Assembly: GCA_029906985.1 (NCBI GenBank)
Contig: JARYMT010000002.1
Coordinates: 124,001-188,000, forward strand
Length of the DNA stretch: 64,000 bases
DNA from: Microgenomates group bacterium
Lineage (GTDB): Bacteria > Patescibacteriota > Microgenomatia > UBA1406 > GWC2-37-13
Direction of reading: 5' to 3'
Shown here: in pieces, positions 11,210 through 16,949 of the stretch
Layout: every line of letters begins with the position of its first letter
How positions within the stretch are numbered: the stretch's first letter is position 1
Translations under genes and position numbers: made by a program
The notes under the pieces: model-generated
The model's input: the letters and a program-made list of their open reading frames with translations, nothing else
What the model was told of the DNA's origin: nothing
The model's database searches: none

Positions 11210-12232
11210 ATGAATGTCCAAATGGTTGAAAATAAAAATGATTGGGAGAAGTTTTTTAATGATTATGGATCAGCCTCTTTTCTTCAATCTTGGCAGTGGG
11301 GCGAGTTTCAAAAAACATTAGGCTATGATATAAGCCGCTTGGGTTTTTGGGAAAAAGGGGAGTTAAGAATGATTGCCCAAGTAATTAAAATCAAATCAAA
11401 AAGAGGTAATTTTCTCTTTATTCCCCATGGGCCGGTGATTAACTGCCGCCAGTTTTCTTGTCAAAAAAGTTATTTAAAAACTTTGAGGGATTTTTTGGTT
11501 AATTTGGCAAAAAAAGACAATTTCAGCTTCATCAGAATTTCGCCCTTAGCCCTTGATGATCATCAAAATCAAAAACTTTATCGAGATTTGGGTTTTAAAA
11601 CTGCTCCGGTTTACATGCATGCGGAAACCATGTGGATTTTGAACCTTAATCCAAGTGAAGAAACGTTAATGGCCAATATGCGCAAAACAACACGTTATTT
11701 AATAAAGAGAGCCGGCCGGGAAAATGTCGTTATTGAAAAAAGAACCGATGAAAAGGCCGTTGATGATTTTTATCGACTCTACGAAGAAACCGCCCGCCGG
11801 GAAAAATTTGTTCCTTTTTCAAAAAAATACATCAGCAATGAGTTTAAAGCTTTTAACCAAACCGGTGACGCTGTTTTTTTATTTGGCTATCAAAAAAAAA
11901 CCACCCTCGCTTCGGCTTTAATCATTTTTACCCGCTCAACGGCTTTTTATCATCAAGGCGCCTCAATCCATAGCAAAATACCAGTGACCTATCTTCTCCA
12001 ATGGGAAGCAATTAAAGAAGCCAAAAAACGAGGCTGTCAGTTTTATAATTTTTGGGGAATTATGAAAAAAGGCCGGACGCCAAAAAGCTGGTCGGGTTTA
12101 ACTCTTTTCAAACAAGGGTTTGGCGGTCAACAGGTTGATTATTTACCTACCCAGGATTATCCAGTAAAAAAACTTTCTTACACAATGACAGTTTTTCTGG
12201 AAAAAATTTTAAACTGGAAAAGGGGAGTTTAA
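11210..12232 (+). CDS. FemAB-family aminoacyltransferase
   Basis: This 340-residue protein has the paired GNAT-like domains of Fem transferases. SFLQSWQWGEFQKTLGY is at the front, LNPSEETLMANMRKTTRYLI in the middle, and FYNFWGIMKKGRTPKSWSGLTLFKQGFGG at the end, which is the C-terminal signature. Fem proteins use aminoacyl-tRNA to add residues to the peptidoglycan stem peptide, usually as cross-bridges. The last 24 bases overlap the opposing MurG-like gene tail to tail. Confidence 0.88.
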   Translation: MNVQMVENKNDWEKFFNDYGSASFLQSWQWGEFQKTLGYDISRLGFWEKGELRMIAQVIKIKSKRGNFLFIPHGPVINCRQFSCQKSYLKTLRDFLVNLAKKDNFSFIRISPLALDDHQNQKLYRDLGFKTAPVYMHAETMWILNLNPSEETLMANMRKTTRYLIKRAGRENVVIEKRTDEKAVDDFYRLYEETARREKFVPFSKKYISNEFKAFNQTGDAVFLFGYQKKTTLASALIIFTRSTAFYHQGASIHSKIPVTYLLQWEAIKEAKKRGCQFYNFWGIMKKGRTPKSWSGLTLFKQGFGGQQVDYLPTQDYPVKKLSYTMTVFLEKILNWKRGV

Positions 12233-13609
12233 ACTATTAGTTGGAGACGGTAAAATTTTTGCCAAAGCTTCCTTGACCCTCTCCCGCCAATTATAGGGAA
12301 ATGGCGGCTCTTGATTAAGTTTTGTTAATAATCTTTCAATTTGACCAACCAAATCTTTATGACGGTGATAATCAAAAAGTTCTGTTCCTATCTTTGATAA
12401 GTTTTTTATTGGTATTACCGCTCCGGTTTCTTCCAGTATTTCTCTAATTCTTGCTTCATGTCTTCCCCAATTGGCAAGGGCGACAAAAAGTTTCCCCGCC
12501 ATTAGGCTCTCTATTCCAATATCGCCGGAGGGTTTACTGCAGACAACCTGCGACCAATTTAACGCCTGATAAGATAAAGGCAAAAGACTGGTTAAATTTT
12601 CTCCGAAAATTATTACTGCTTGATCATCCTTTTTGACAGTCAATGACTCGTTAACATCGTGAATTCTATAAGCAATTCCTTTTCTTTTTAATTCTCTTAC
12701 CAGTTTCTCCTTCAAATCAGCATTGGTGCCGCAATAAAAAACTCCTTGCTGAAAACGATAATCCAAATTTTTAGCAATGGTTAAAATCTCTTCCTGATTA
12801 CCGCCCAGTCCGCCGGTAAACACGCCAACTCTTAATTTTTTTCTGCCGCCTAAAAAATAATTATATTCTTGTTTTTTTGTTTCTAAATTTGCCAAATCAA
12901 TATTTACCTCCAATTCTTTTGCCAGTGGAAAGCCAGTGCAAAAAACTCTTTCCGGCGGCACTCCTTGTTTAATTAACGAAACTCTTGTCGCCTCATCAAA
13001 AGTAAAGTAATAAACAAAGGGTAAATTTTTATATTTCAAATAATTGGGGTGAACATAAGGATCAGTGACATAATGAATGACTGGAATATCGCTTCGATGA
13101 TTCCTTGATAAAAAATCAGCGGCAAGATTGCCGACAGCATAGTGGAAAGTGACAATCGGCTTAGCTGGTACTCCGCTAATTACCGCTTCAATAATCGCTT
13201 CTGTTTCTGCTCTTAAATATTCTTCAAGCGGCAATCCTTGTCTTAAAATCGGGGCCATCAACTCATGGCCTTTTCTTAATAATAAAGAGCGAGCAACCCG
13301 CCGGCCTTGTTCGCCGACAAAACTCATTTTTTGCCACGCATCCGTCAGCAAATATCGGCCAACATCGACCACCGGCAATCGAGAGTTTTTTTCTTCCAAT
13401 TGAGCAAACGCCAACGGCATTGATAAATGAGCCCTTGATAAAACCAGTTCTTTTTCTTTACCGGTTAATCCCGGTTCTTCAACCACCGAGGCGGTTAAAA
13501 TCAGCATGCTTGCCCCAATCAATTCTCTTAGTTCTTTTGAATCAGCTAATCTTAGCGCAGTTAACCGCTTAGGAACATTGGTTTCGGGTAATGATCCCTC
13601 AACGTTCAT
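12209..13609 (-). CDS. MurG/MGDG synthase-like glycosyltransferase
   Basis: The protein has a two-domain GT-B layout. The N-terminal part holds IVTFHYAVGNLAADFLSR and IPVIHYVTDPYVHPNYL. The C-terminal part has VGVFTGGLGGNQEEIL, then SQVVCSKPSGDIGIESLMAGKLFV, which matches the donor-binding PxGxxxxExxxxG region of the GT28/MurG superfamily. The first 100 residues are an unusual extension. It is last in a minus-strand run with the kinase fusion and ABC genes. The acceptor is unknown; a lipid-linked sugar is likely. Confidence 0.72.
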   Translation of the reverse strand: MNVEGSLPETNVPKRLTALRLADSKELRELIGASMLILTASVVEEPGLTGKEKELVLSRAHLSMPLAFAQLEEKNSRLPVVDVGRYLLTDAWQKMSFVGEQGRRVARSLLLRKGHELMAPILRQGLPLEEYLRAETEAIIEAVISGVPAKPIVTFHYAVGNLAADFLSRNHRSDIPVIHYVTDPYVHPNYLKYKNLPFVYYFTFDEATRVSLIKQGVPPERVFCTGFPLAKELEVNIDLANLETKKQEYNYFLGGRKKLRVGVFTGGLGGNQEEILTIAKNLDYRFQQGVFYCGTNADLKEKLVRELKRKGIAYRIHDVNESLTVKKDDQAVIIFGENLTSLLPLSYQALNWSQVVCSKPSGDIGIESLMAGKLFVALANWGRHEARIREILEETGAVIPIKNLSKIGTELFDYHRHKDLVGQIERLLTKLNQEPPFPYNWRERVKEALAKILPSPTNSLNSPFPV

Positions 13610-13633: not shown

Positions 13634-15241
13634 TTATTTTGGCCCTCGCCGGCAGCTAAAATGCTCCTCCTGACAAACCGGTTCATAAGTGCTGTCGCCG
13701 GGTAAAAAAACTGTATCATGGTAATCAGCGATGATAATTTTGCCGTCTTTGCCGATTTTATTCCTTCTGGTCCCTTTAGCCCTCCGGTCGCAATATCGAC
13801 ACCGGGTCGAAGTTTCTATTTCATGCCAAAATTTATTTTTTTTAACCTCTTTTAATAAATGTTTCATAAAAGTAAAATATTCTCCCCGAAAAGTAAAATC
13901 AATCCCATTGGCGATTATATGAAAACCTTTTTTTCTCAAAGAGTCAAGAACAGCGATTGCTTTTTTTGGTTGAGAAGCTTGAGCGATAAACAACATTACT
14001 TCATCAATAAATATATAAGGAAATTGTTTGGGAGAAAGTCTTTTTTTGCGGATATATTTAATTATTGTTTCAAGATCATTGTCTTCGATAATTTTTGCTT
14101 TGAGCCGATAACCATCCCGGCTGACAATCGCTTTTTCTTGACTTTGATATCTGACCGCTGCCCGCGGCTGGAAGGCTAGCGTTTTTCTTTTTCCTAATTC
14201 TGAAGCCAAAAGACAACTAACAGTCGTTTTACCGCTGAACATACTTTTACTGTGAATGAGAATTACTGTCCGGCCCCGTGATTCAGCCATTTTCCGCAAA
14301 ATTTCTTTGACCGCTTCTTGTGGTTGCGGTTCTAATAATTCTCCCAAAAGATTAAGTTCGCGTCTTATCTGATAAACATAATCATAGCTTAAAGACGGAT
14401 TTTCATAAGCAGCCACCGGATTGACAGTAATTTTTAAAACCGGCACCCCCCATTGATCGGTAATCTTTTGGCAAAGTTCATCAACTCTTTGGATTTGAAT
14501 CTTTAAGTCTTTAAAGCCAAAATTTAATTCTCCTTTTCGCCAGGGCTCATCTTTTTGTCGTCTTTTTATTCCTTCGATTAAATTTTCAATTTTATCGGGC
14601 AACAAAATTACCAAAAGGTTAGGGGAGGGAATAATTGGCTTAAAAAGTCTGACCACTTCTTGATACATCGAATATTCCTCGGAAGTTAAAAAACCAACCT
14701 CGTAGTACCATTTTGCCCACATTAAAATATCAGTTAAAGTACTCGTGTCGGAGACAGCAATCCCCGAAGAAGCTTTAGCTTTGATATCGGAAAAAATATT
14801 GCTTAATAAAAAATAAATCTGCGAGCGAAGCATATAATCGGGATTTTGCTGGGATTTCGCCCAAAAAGGATTTTTCCGATGGGGCTCTTTGACAACAAAA
14901 TTTGCTTTAAGATCTTTGATTAAAATTTGGCTGATCGTACTTTTACCCACTCCCAAAGGTCCTAAAAAACCAATGTATTTATTGGCATTTTTATTGATAA
15001 TCGAGGTAAAAATTTTATTTAAATTAATTTTATGCTTCAAAGCGAAAAGGTCAATGAGGCGATAAAAAATTAATTTTTCATTAATTGGTAGGTTTAAAAC
15101 TTGGGTTAATAATTTTTCTTTAAGAGCAAAAAAATTTTTTTCCGTAACTAGACGGTTTTTTTTCTCCCAAAAATTAATTTCTTCAACCACTTTCGCCAGC
15201 TTTTGACAAAATTGTTGACGGTCAGAAGTGGCGTGAACCAT
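13634..15241 (-). CDS. Fused deoxynucleoside kinase and type II thymidine kinase
   Basis: Two unrelated nucleoside kinases sit in one 535-residue chain. Residues about 90-300 form a dNK-family kinase: P-loop GPLGVGKST, SDTSTLTDILMW where relatives have ERS/DRS, and a lid with IKRRQKDEPW. Residues about 325-535 form a type II thymidine kinase: MFSGKTT, the catalytic Glu of YIFIDEVMLF, GIDFTFRGEYF and a zinc ribbon (CRYCDRR with CQEEHFSC). The Arg of the first kinase's DRS motif appears replaced. It would salvage deoxynucleosides, which suits a host-dependent cell. It follows the ABC permease by two bases. Confidence 0.8.
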   Translation of the reverse strand: MVHATSDRQQFCQKLAKVVEEINFWEKKNRLVTEKNFFALKEKLLTQVLNLPINEKLIFYRLIDLFALKHKINLNKIFTSIINKNANKYIGFLGPLGVGKSTISQILIKDLKANFVVKEPHRKNPFWAKSQQNPDYMLRSQIYFLLSNIFSDIKAKASSGIAVSDTSTLTDILMWAKWYYEVGFLTSEEYSMYQEVVRLFKPIIPSPNLLVILLPDKIENLIEGIKRRQKDEPWRKGELNFGFKDLKIQIQRVDELCQKITDQWGVPVLKITVNPVAAYENPSLSYDYVYQIRRELNLLGELLEPQPQEAVKEILRKMAESRGRTVILIHSKSMFSGKTTVSCLLASELGKRKTLAFQPRAAVRYQSQEKAIVSRDGYRLKAKIIEDNDLETIIKYIRKKRLSPKQFPYIFIDEVMLFIAQASQPKKAIAVLDSLRKKGFHIIANGIDFTFRGEYFTFMKHLLKEVKKNKFWHEIETSTRCRYCDRRAKGTRRNKIGKDGKIIIADYHDTVFLPGDSTYEPVCQEEHFSCRRGPK

Positions 15242-15243
15242 AA

Positions 15244-16029
15244 TTAAAAAACTTTGATTAATCCTTTATTTAAAACTTTTTTATAACTTTGGCGCAAAAA
15301 AACCAAAGCCAAAAGCAAATAAATGATATTAAGAATAAAACTAAATATCAAGTCTAAATAGTCAACTTTACCTTGATTAAGCAATTTTCTTGCTCCTTCA
15401 AAAACGTAACTCGTCGGGACAAAAGCTGCCACCTTTTGCGCCCAGGGCGGTAAAACTGATAAAGGATAATAAATCGCCGAAAAAGGAGCAATAATCATGA
15501 TTGCCGTCCAGGCAAAAGTTTGCACTTTAGTTCCAAAGCGAAGGATGACTCCAGCGACCAAAAAACCAACCCACCAGCCGGTAATAATTAAAAGAAAAAT
15601 AAAAGGCAAAAAATAAAAACCGAGATAAAAAATTTTCACCCGATAAAGAAGAAAGGCAATAATTATGGCAAAACCAAGGCTTAAAAAAGCTTTGATAATT
15701 CCGACAATTAAAACAGTAACAATCCACTCGGAAAATTTTAACGGCGAGCCAAAAAGATTAATTAAATTTCTATTCCAAATTTCCTCAAGCAAATTGACGG
15801 TGATTTCATACTGGCCCCTCCAGACAACAATCCATAAAAGAATCCCCGAGACAATCATTAAAATTACTTTGGAATTTAGTGGCGTATATTGTTTAAAATA
15901 AGCGCTGGTTAAACCCCAAAGTAAAAGATCGACTGTCGGCCAATAAAAAGCGTCGCTCATTCTGTCTAAACTATGGCGAAAATAATAAAAATAACGCAAC
16001 ACCATGGCATATATTCGATTGATTTTCAT
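15244..16029 (-). CDS. ABC-2 type exporter permease
   Basis: This 261-residue protein has six membrane helices and the ABC-2 pattern with a conserved loop PFSAIYYPLSVLPPWAQKVAAFVP before the last helices. It starts within the stop of the ATPase gene (ATGA overlap), so the two form a single exporter. The substrate, perhaps a lipid-linked glycan, cannot be determined. Confidence 0.82.
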   Translation of the reverse strand: MKINRIYAMVLRYFYYFRHSLDRMSDAFYWPTVDLLLWGLTSAYFKQYTPLNSKVILMIVSGILLWIVVWRGQYEITVNLLEEIWNRNLINLFGSPLKFSEWIVTVLIVGIIKAFLSLGFAIIIAFLLYRVKIFYLGFYFLPFIFLLIITGWWVGFLVAGVILRFGTKVQTFAWTAIMIIAPFSAIYYPLSVLPPWAQKVAAFVPTSYVFEGARKLLNQGKVDYLDLIFSFILNIIYLLLALVFLRQSYKKVLNKGLIKVF

Positions 16030-16949
16030 TTTTTCCTCTTGGCAACTTCTAAAAAATAATCTTCAAGACTTGGTTTATCAATCGCTATTTCGTCATAAAA
16101 AACTCCCCGATCAATCAAAGTTTTTAGAAAATTGGGGATTTGTCTTTCTTTTAAATCAACAATAATATATCTTCCCTCCAATCGGTATAACAACTGGTTT
16201 TTTTGGCATTCTTCAATGGTTCTTTTTAACCCATCTTTAACCAAAAGGGTCAGATGACTGATTTCAATTGTTCTGGCTAAATTTTCCGGCGTATCATCGG
16301 CAATAATTTTTCCTTTATTTATAAAAATTACCCGGTCGCAGATTTCTTCGACTTCGGCCATATTGTGGGAAGTAAAAATCAGGCTGACTTTAAATTGTTT
16401 TCTCTCGTTTAATATAAATTGGCGGATATAATTGGCAATATCCGGATCCAAAGAGGCGGTTGGTTCGTCTAAAAGCAGCACCCGGGGGAAATTTATAAAC
16501 GCCTTGGCCAGATTAACCCGGGTTCTTTGACCGGCAGATAAATCTTGAATCTGAAGATCCAAAAGCTGATATAAATTAAAAATATCAATTAATTTATTCA
16601 GTCTTTTTTTTCGGTCATCAATTTGGTAAAGATATGACAAAAAAGTCAGGTTTTCTTTGACGGTTAAATCCCACGGTAAATTAACATCGGTCAGGGAAAA
16701 ATTGATTTCGGTTAAAATTTCCTCACGGGCGGTCTTTAAATTTTTGCCAAAATAAAAAATATCGCCGGCTGTAGGCGTTAAAACACCTAAAAGCATTTGA
16801 ATTGTTGTTGTCTTTCCAGCTCCATTTGGCCCAAGAAGTCCCAAGATTTCTCCCTCTTTCAAAGAAAAAGAAACATTATCCACCGCCAAAAATCCACTAT
16901 CAGCCGGTCCGAATCTTTTAGTTAGATTTTTAACCTGTAAAATATCCAT
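16026..16949 (-). CDS. ABC exporter ATP-binding protein
   Basis: All nucleotide-binding motifs are present: Walker A GPNGAGKTT, signature LSAGQRTRVNLAKAF, Walker B VLLLDEPTASLDP, and the switch His in FTSHNMAEVEEICD. The C-terminal 80 residues form the small domain common in ABC-2 exporter ATPases. It is the first gene of the minus-strand run that continues with the permease, kinase fusion and MurG-like gene. Confidence 0.9.
   Translation of the reverse strand: MDILQVKNLTKRFGPADSGFLAVDNVSFSLKEGEILGLLGPNGAGKTTTIQMLLGVLTPTAGDIFYFGKNLKTAREEILTEINFSLTDVNLPWDLTVKENLTFLSYLYQIDDRKKRLNKLIDIFNLYQLLDLQIQDLSAGQRTRVNLAKAFINFPRVLLLDEPTASLDPDIANYIRQFILNERKQFKVSLIFTSHNMAEVEEICDRVIFINKGKIIADDTPENLARTIEISHLTLLVKDGLKRTIEECQKNQLLYRLEGRYIIVDLKERQIPNFLKTLIDRGVFYDEIAIDKPSLEDYFLEVAKRKK

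Follow-up and report, generated by a model that had tools for sequence, protein, structure and literature searches.

A rare dNK-type kinase and type II thymidine kinase fusion in a Microgenomates group bacterium

Introduction

Deoxynucleoside kinases comprise two families that are normally found as separate proteins. Where nature has joined them, a broad-range nucleoside kinase would be available ready-made, for use in the synthesis of nucleotide analogues and the labelling of uncultured cells. Such a protein would also provide a direct test of whether a kinase domain added in cis raises substrate affinity in scavenging organisms, an idea for which the tandem thymidine kinases (TKs) of parasites are so far the known case. 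In the window (the whole stretch of 64,000 nucleotides analysed here, from a Microgenomates group bacterium), an earlier note made from the sequence alone proposed one such protein, with a dNK-type kinase joined to a type II (TK1-like) TK. Is this join genuine, how widely does it occur, and does the protein carry one working kinase or two?

The relationship between the two families is described differently by different sources. In the kinase classification of PMC1079889, PF00265 and PF01712 both fall within one Rossmann-like group of P-loop kinases, so the note's statement that the families belong to different folds is too strong, although passages of PMC11662666 treat TK1-like and non-TK1-like dNKs as structurally unrelated families. 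The latter passages also associate a larger number of subunits or domains with a gain of affinity. With regard to the tandem TKs of parasites, sections of PMC10208901 and PMC9190010 report that activity of the Trypanosoma brucei enzyme resides in its C-terminal repeat, affinity being raised by the N-terminal one, and that Giardia TK likewise combines one active and one degenerate part.

Gene and domain architecture

The fusion gene (15241..13634, minus strand) is a single uninterrupted frame of 535 amino acids with an ATG start, a TAA stop and no internal stop. In the source assembly, which is 98% complete (953 kb in 16 contigs), no other full-length match occurs, and base composition has no step at the dNK/TK junction. 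When searched with family HMMs, each half matched its own family above the Pfam gathering cut-off, namely PF01712 (dNK) over residues 94-232 (42.2 bits; cut-off 27) and PF00265 (TK) over residues 331-525 (48.9 bits; cut-off 20.6); no Pfam family matched residues 1-83. NCBIfam thymidine kinase equivalogs also matched the protein, with scores below their cut-offs. A sequence search of the PDB recovered TK1-like enzymes and Mycoplasma/Giardia-type dNKs, splitting the protein into the same halves as Pfam.

An AlphaFold model of the whole protein, based on a 15-sequence alignment in which the dNK part was informed by one relative only, had a pLDDT of 82.8 (65.7-72.3 for the other four models). In VIA-align comparisons, residues 85-298 were superposed on human dCK with a Z of 22.4 and an rmsd of 2.3 over 204 residues, and the fold of residues 85-299 gave Z values of 20.2-22.4 to dCK and Mycoplasma mycoides dAK. 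Because the dNK half filled the whole-model list, from which TK chains were absent, the TK half (residues 321-535) was modelled separately, yielding a pLDDT of 87.0. This model matched the Ureaplasma urealyticum TK with a Z of 19.9 over 184 residues (rmsd 3.7); 24 TK entries lay at Z 14.3-19.9, and the next family was RecA, its first row at 11.8. The models thereby predict two complete kinase folds, one dCK-like (85-299) and the other TK1-like (321-535), and the composite protein proposed in the earlier note is upheld by the open frame, both Pfam matches and the agreeing predicted folds.

An in-frame ATG (Met318; window 14288-14290, minus strand) lies immediately ahead of the TK domain, from which internal initiation of a separate TK product is conceivable. 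Compared by eye, the second fusion described below does not have it at this position.

Table 1. Coordinates of the fusion gene, its parts and its neighbours in the window
Feature	Position	Strand	Basis
dNK-TK fusion gene, 535 aa	13634..15241	(-)	open frame; Pfam dNK and TK above cut-off; same architecture in G070 (L015/L030)
N-terminal extension, residues 1-82, mainly helical	14996..15241	(-)	modelled secondary structure; 32% identity to second fusion
dNK domain, residues 83-300	14342..14995	(-)	PF01712 42.2 bits; Z about 22 to human dCK
dNK-half P-loop GPLGVGKS, residues 94-101	14939..14962	(-)	alignment
D165-T166-S167 at the ERS/DRS place, without Arg	14741..14749	(-)	alignments
Linker, residues 301-324, largely one helix	14270..14341	(-)	model secondary structure; fusion-fusion comparison
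Type II (TK1-like) thymidine kinase domain, residues 325-535	13637..14269	(-)	PF00265 48.9 bits; TK-half model
TK-half P-loop KSMFSGKT, residues 332-339	14225..14248	(-)	alignment
Glu414, TK1 catalytic-base position (Asp in second fusion)	14000..14002	(-)	alignment
Cys481-x2-Cys484, predicted zinc site, first half	13790..13801	(-)	alignment
Cys523-x3-His527, predicted zinc site, second half	13661..13675	(-)	alignment; spacing matches stand-alone TK of L014
ABC-2 permease gene, directly upstream, 2 bp gap	15244..16029	(-)	PF01061 30.2 bits
ABC ATPase gene, overlapping permease start	16026..16949	(-)	PF00005 107.7 bits
Downstream gene, weakly like glycolipid glycosyltransferases	12209..13609	(-)	matches all below curated cut-offs

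A second fusion in the same family

A search for the same architecture in other Patescibacteria revealed one more fusion, in a Candidatus Roizmanbacteria genome (G070) belonging to the same family as the window genome. The two proteins are 46% identical over residues 6-534 of the window protein, and the second one also exceeds both Pfam cut-offs (PF01712, 41.6 bits; PF00265, 29.4 bits). Over 4176 bases its locus has the same sequence as PFOE01000052.1 (L030) of Candidatus Roizmanbacteria CG_4_10_14_0_2_um_filter_36_35, and an orthologue of the window permease (59% identical) lies directly upstream. No frameshift or assembly join, which the earlier note had placed as a risk at 14200-14400, was found, and the second genome is colinear across that stretch. 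Since an independent genome carries a colinear, 46% identical fusion behind the same permease, the sequence comparison indicates that the join is biological and not a product of assembly. The probability that an assembly or frameshift artefact joined two genes is negligible: no evidence in its favour was found, the same join recurs in PFOE01000052.1, composition is even across the junction, and 46% identity excludes a copied assembly error.

Identity between the two fusions is unevenly distributed, with 53% in the TK domain (112/211), 47% in the dNK core (72/153), 37% in the C-terminal part of the dNK domain (23/63), 33% in the linker (8/24) and 32% in the extension (26/82). Both catalytic halves therefore look constrained when compared with the extension and linker, which favours two working heads over one.

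The second copy carries an in-frame TGA (L015:1240-1242) between the extension and the dNK P-loop, with no ATG, GTG or TTG between this codon and the P-loop. Stop-codon reassignment was considered and ruled out, as TGA also terminates further genes of that record; the codon is thus taken to be either a sequence error or a nonsense mutation rather than recoding. Counting this codon, lesions in draft sequence occur at three of the four ABC-2/dNK loci, the other two being a frameshift in the dNK of G062 (L121:4388-5519) and a frame break in the permease of G016 (L120:2801-3588). In view of the TGA and the G062 frameshift, either the gene may be dispensable or these metagenome-assembled genomes (MAGs) may carry errors.

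Active-site residues

The dNK half was aligned with 25 other sequences chosen by likeness to the window protein; PF01712 loci that did not match the window half at an E of 1 (L078, L080 and L083-L092) were excluded. The roles of the aligned dNK positions, including the ERS motif, are those given in the dCK literature. GK[ST] is intact in the P-loops of both halves of the fusion, and in the alignment the dNK half also retains Glu119 (EP/EEN position) and Asp171 (D-x5-D position). As the earlier note had observed, this half possesses a P-loop and lacks the Arg of the ERS/DRS motif, with DTS in a place where dNKs have E/D-R-S/T. However, Arg is also absent from 24 of the 25 compared relatives (DTP, DTS, DSF, DSG or DTL, with DRS in the remaining one), so its loss is no mark of decay. 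With the Pfam dNK model, two stand-alone dNKs of the DTP type reach 158.7 and 155.9 bits. The missing Arg is read, from the alignment, as a lineage variant that is ordinary within this part of the dNK family and implies no special defect. The lid segment is atypical in the window protein (RRQKDEP) and canonical-looking in the second fusion (KRGRSEE), where Ala replaces the first Gly of the dNK P-loop.

Overall, the dNK half shares its fold with non-TK1-like dNKs such as human dCK, M. mycoides dAK and Giardia dAK (Z 20-22), and resembles canonical dNKs in its P-loop, its catalytic Glu position and the Asp after the ERS position. It departs from them in the missing Arg, the 82-residue helical N-terminus and the attachment to a TK.

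The alignments used for structure prediction included 13 (A6) and 15 (A7) viral TKs, out of 61 loci. In the alignment of active-site positions, the TK half retains GKT, Glu414, Thr491 (A-x2-T), Tyr519 (YEP) and four zinc-type ligands. The claim that it keeps the catalytic Glu and the zinc ribbon is accordingly sustained by the aligned Glu414, Cys481, Cys484, Cys523 and His527, the zinc site itself being predicted. The Glu of the TK DE motif has a catalytic role, as described for E85 of the Leishmania major enzyme in passages of PMC4433323. The fused half is thus like type II TKs of U. urealyticum, Bacillus cereus and Thermotoga maritima in its fold, GKT, DE, lasso Tyr and zinc-type ligands. 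Unlike them, it has Lys332 in place of the first Gly of the P-loop motif G-x4-GK[ST], Met416 in place of the DExQ Gln (DExM), an insertion after the DE motif and a location C-terminal to a dNK. The Lys and Met substitutions are common to both fusions; Asp occupies the Glu414 position in the G070 protein.

Variation at the same motif was observed elsewhere. Stand-alone TKs from one genus of the family (L067:1486-2088, L068:1450-2052 and L069:1465-2058; genomes G035, G059 and G006) have Ser at the catalytic-Glu position, reading IDSTQFF, IDSAQFF and IDSVQFF, yet their Pfam TK scores are about 96-103 bits. A TK on a viral contig (L167:2977-3531) reads IDEASLFLN, which, like the fused half, lacks the DExQ Gln and has a short insert after it.

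Rarity and distribution

The full-length fusion was detected in 2 of 72 family genomes (the window genome and G070). The same two accounted for the occurrences in the order (2/83) and class (2/372) samples, and the window genome alone for that in the phylum sample (1/379); these samples overlap and the counts are not additive. A contig scan with the single protein yielded 14 stretches and no relative, and a scan with an alignment yielded 138 stretches with the second fusion as the one relative, both scans being insensitive to distant copies. Pattern scans of viral contigs, similarly insensitive, detected no fusion, and tblastn searches of phages and plasmids returned only single-half matches at 25-28% identity and no fusion. 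Weak PilT-like TK hits (L073-L075) were considered and dropped.

Separately, PF00265 exceeds its cut-off in 17 of the 72 family genomes, including the two with the fusion, and stand-alone TKs are patchy within the family; PF01712 likewise exceeds its cut-off in 17/72. Neither fusion genome encodes a second TK or dNK above the family cut-off. The earlier note knew of no standard fusion of the two families, and the open-access literature searched contained no precedent for one. The architecture is real, rare, so far restricted to one family and built of known enzyme families.

Neighbouring genes and origin of the halves

In the dNK tree, from which G062/L016 (split) and L032 and L077 (duplicates) were left out, the window dNK half forms one group (100/100) with its G070 counterpart and a 347-aa dNK of G016 that stands alone. 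The G016 protein has a long N-terminus comparable to residues 1-82 of the fusion and adjoins the same ABC pair. G062 encodes a similar, frameshift-split dNK with the ABC pair one gene away; the relatives of the window ABC ATPase at these two loci are 66% (G016) and 47% (G062) identical to it. The branch order of the three grouped dNKs has a support of 90/71, too weak to decide between a fusion gained twice and one lost in G016. Branches are very long for both halves (3.74 changes per column for the dNK half and 4.77, the longest, for the TK half), so that function may have shifted. A placement of the TK half near the viral TK L167 (85/79) was left unused, as the tree program flagged a possible long-branch join.

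An N-extended dNK has an ABC-2 neighbour in all four genomes in which it was seen, with or without a TK; in G070 the evidence is the permease alone, where the contig starts. None of the 13 ordinary dNK loci compared (L107-L119) has the ABC genes. The glycosyltransferase-like gene starts 24 bp past the fusion stop and has no match in the compared loci.

Six of the 13 ordinary dNK loci, all from other genomes of the class, have a TK gene downstream on the same strand. These clusters (L112, L113, L114, L115, L118 and L119) resemble the fusion in the order of dNK and TK, and differ from it in having separate genes with others between them and an ordinary short dNK. Such a neighbourhood offers a route to the fusion and a shared pathway. 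A recurrent version in the class (L112, L114, L115 and L119) comprises a GlmS-like gene, the dNK, a dTMP-kinase-like gene and the TK, with a HAD-like phosphatase in most and a nucleoside-phosphorylase-like and a GlyA-like gene in some; names other than dNK and TK were read by eye.

Proposed function and alternatives

RNR (PF02867), ThyA and dTMP kinase are encoded in the window genome and in three other tested genomes; ThyX was not found in any of the four. A need for salvage for want of de novo synthesis was therefore ruled out, and the suggestion of a salvage enzyme for a host-dependent cell needs the qualification that this cell is not forced to salvage. With RNR and ThyA present, salvage would supplement de novo synthesis rather than serve as the only source. 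Since dTMP kinase is encoded, dTMP from the TK half would be usable. In passages of PMC7304191, nucleotide salvage genes are described as patchy in CPR bacteria.

The favoured interpretation, to which we give an even chance, is a deoxynucleoside salvage kinase with two functions, its dNK and TK being joined in cis. The N-terminal head, with its family-specific helical extension, would most likely phosphorylate purine deoxynucleosides and/or deoxycytidine, and the C-terminal head thymidine or deoxyuridine. One gene could thus supply the first step, generally the limiting one, for most deoxynucleosides, and the fusion would couple both activities to a common expression level and a shared oligomer. 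Observation supplies the single frame, the family matches, the predicted folds, the second genome and the main active-site positions kept; the activity of both heads, their substrates and the benefit of fusion are what we infer from these.

The earlier note had left a choice between broad salvage and a regulatory dNK half. Both remain candidates, with salvage somewhat better supported; readings in which either head is regulatory are together plausible, if less probable. In one of them, unlikely yet worth weighing, catalysis falls to the TK half alone, and the dNK half and its extension act as a pseudokinase-like partner by stabilising the enzyme, standing in for a subunit contact or increasing the affinity for thymidine. 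The TK half is indeed the better conserved one, and the dNK half has an atypical lid and lacks the ERS Arg; that Arg, however, is missing from nearly all compared dNKs, the P-loop Lys, Glu and Asp are kept, and in the second fusion it is the lid that looks canonical and the TK base that has changed to Asp. The precedents of T. brucei and Giardia TK, with one active and one inactive or degenerate part, suggest by analogy a possible split of the fusion into an active and a supporting module. Passages on parasite tandem TKs (Trypanosoma brucei, Giardia, Trichomonas, Ascaris) likewise describe two kinase modules per chain in organisms that scavenge nucleosides, but those are repeats of one family (TK1), whereas the fusion has one TK stretch and a partner from the other dNK family. 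The converse, with the dNK half catalytic and the TK half turned into a structural module or a sensor that binds thymidine/dTTP, appears quite unlikely. It would accommodate the longest branch and the substitutions in the TK half (P-loop Gly to Lys, DExQ Gln to Met, catalytic Glu to Asp in the second fusion); against it, the window protein retains GKT, Glu414 and the lasso and zinc positions, identity between the fusions peaks in the TK half, and the Glu is variable in three stand-alone family TKs too.

It is very unlikely that the gene is decaying or died recently, with the fusion an evolutionary accident under loss. The in-frame TGA, the frameshifted dNK of G062, the rarity of the fusion and the presence of a de novo pathway agree with decay, but the window copy has an intact frame of 535 codons, and its 46% identity to the homologue is strongest in the catalytic regions. 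Over such a time an inactivated gene would have lost its open frame, and the lesions lie in draft MAGs. More speculatively, and with a low probability, the fusion might be a heterotypic pair in which purine or cytosine deoxynucleosides (or their dNTPs) are detected by the dNK head, which in turn governs how active the TK head is or how tightly it binds; if so, a single scavenging enzyme would balance incoming DNA precursors. On this reading, the conserved ABC-2 transporter neighbour may be part of the same module for uptake or efflux.

Apart from the dNK-TK fusion, a 397-aa protein encoded directly upstream of the stand-alone TKs with Ser at the catalytic-Glu position (L007:1956-3149 and L017:317-1510) appears to combine an HD phosphohydrolase domain with a dTMP kinase, an assignment made by eye with a weak kinase match as its profile support. 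It looks like another salvage fusion in this family.
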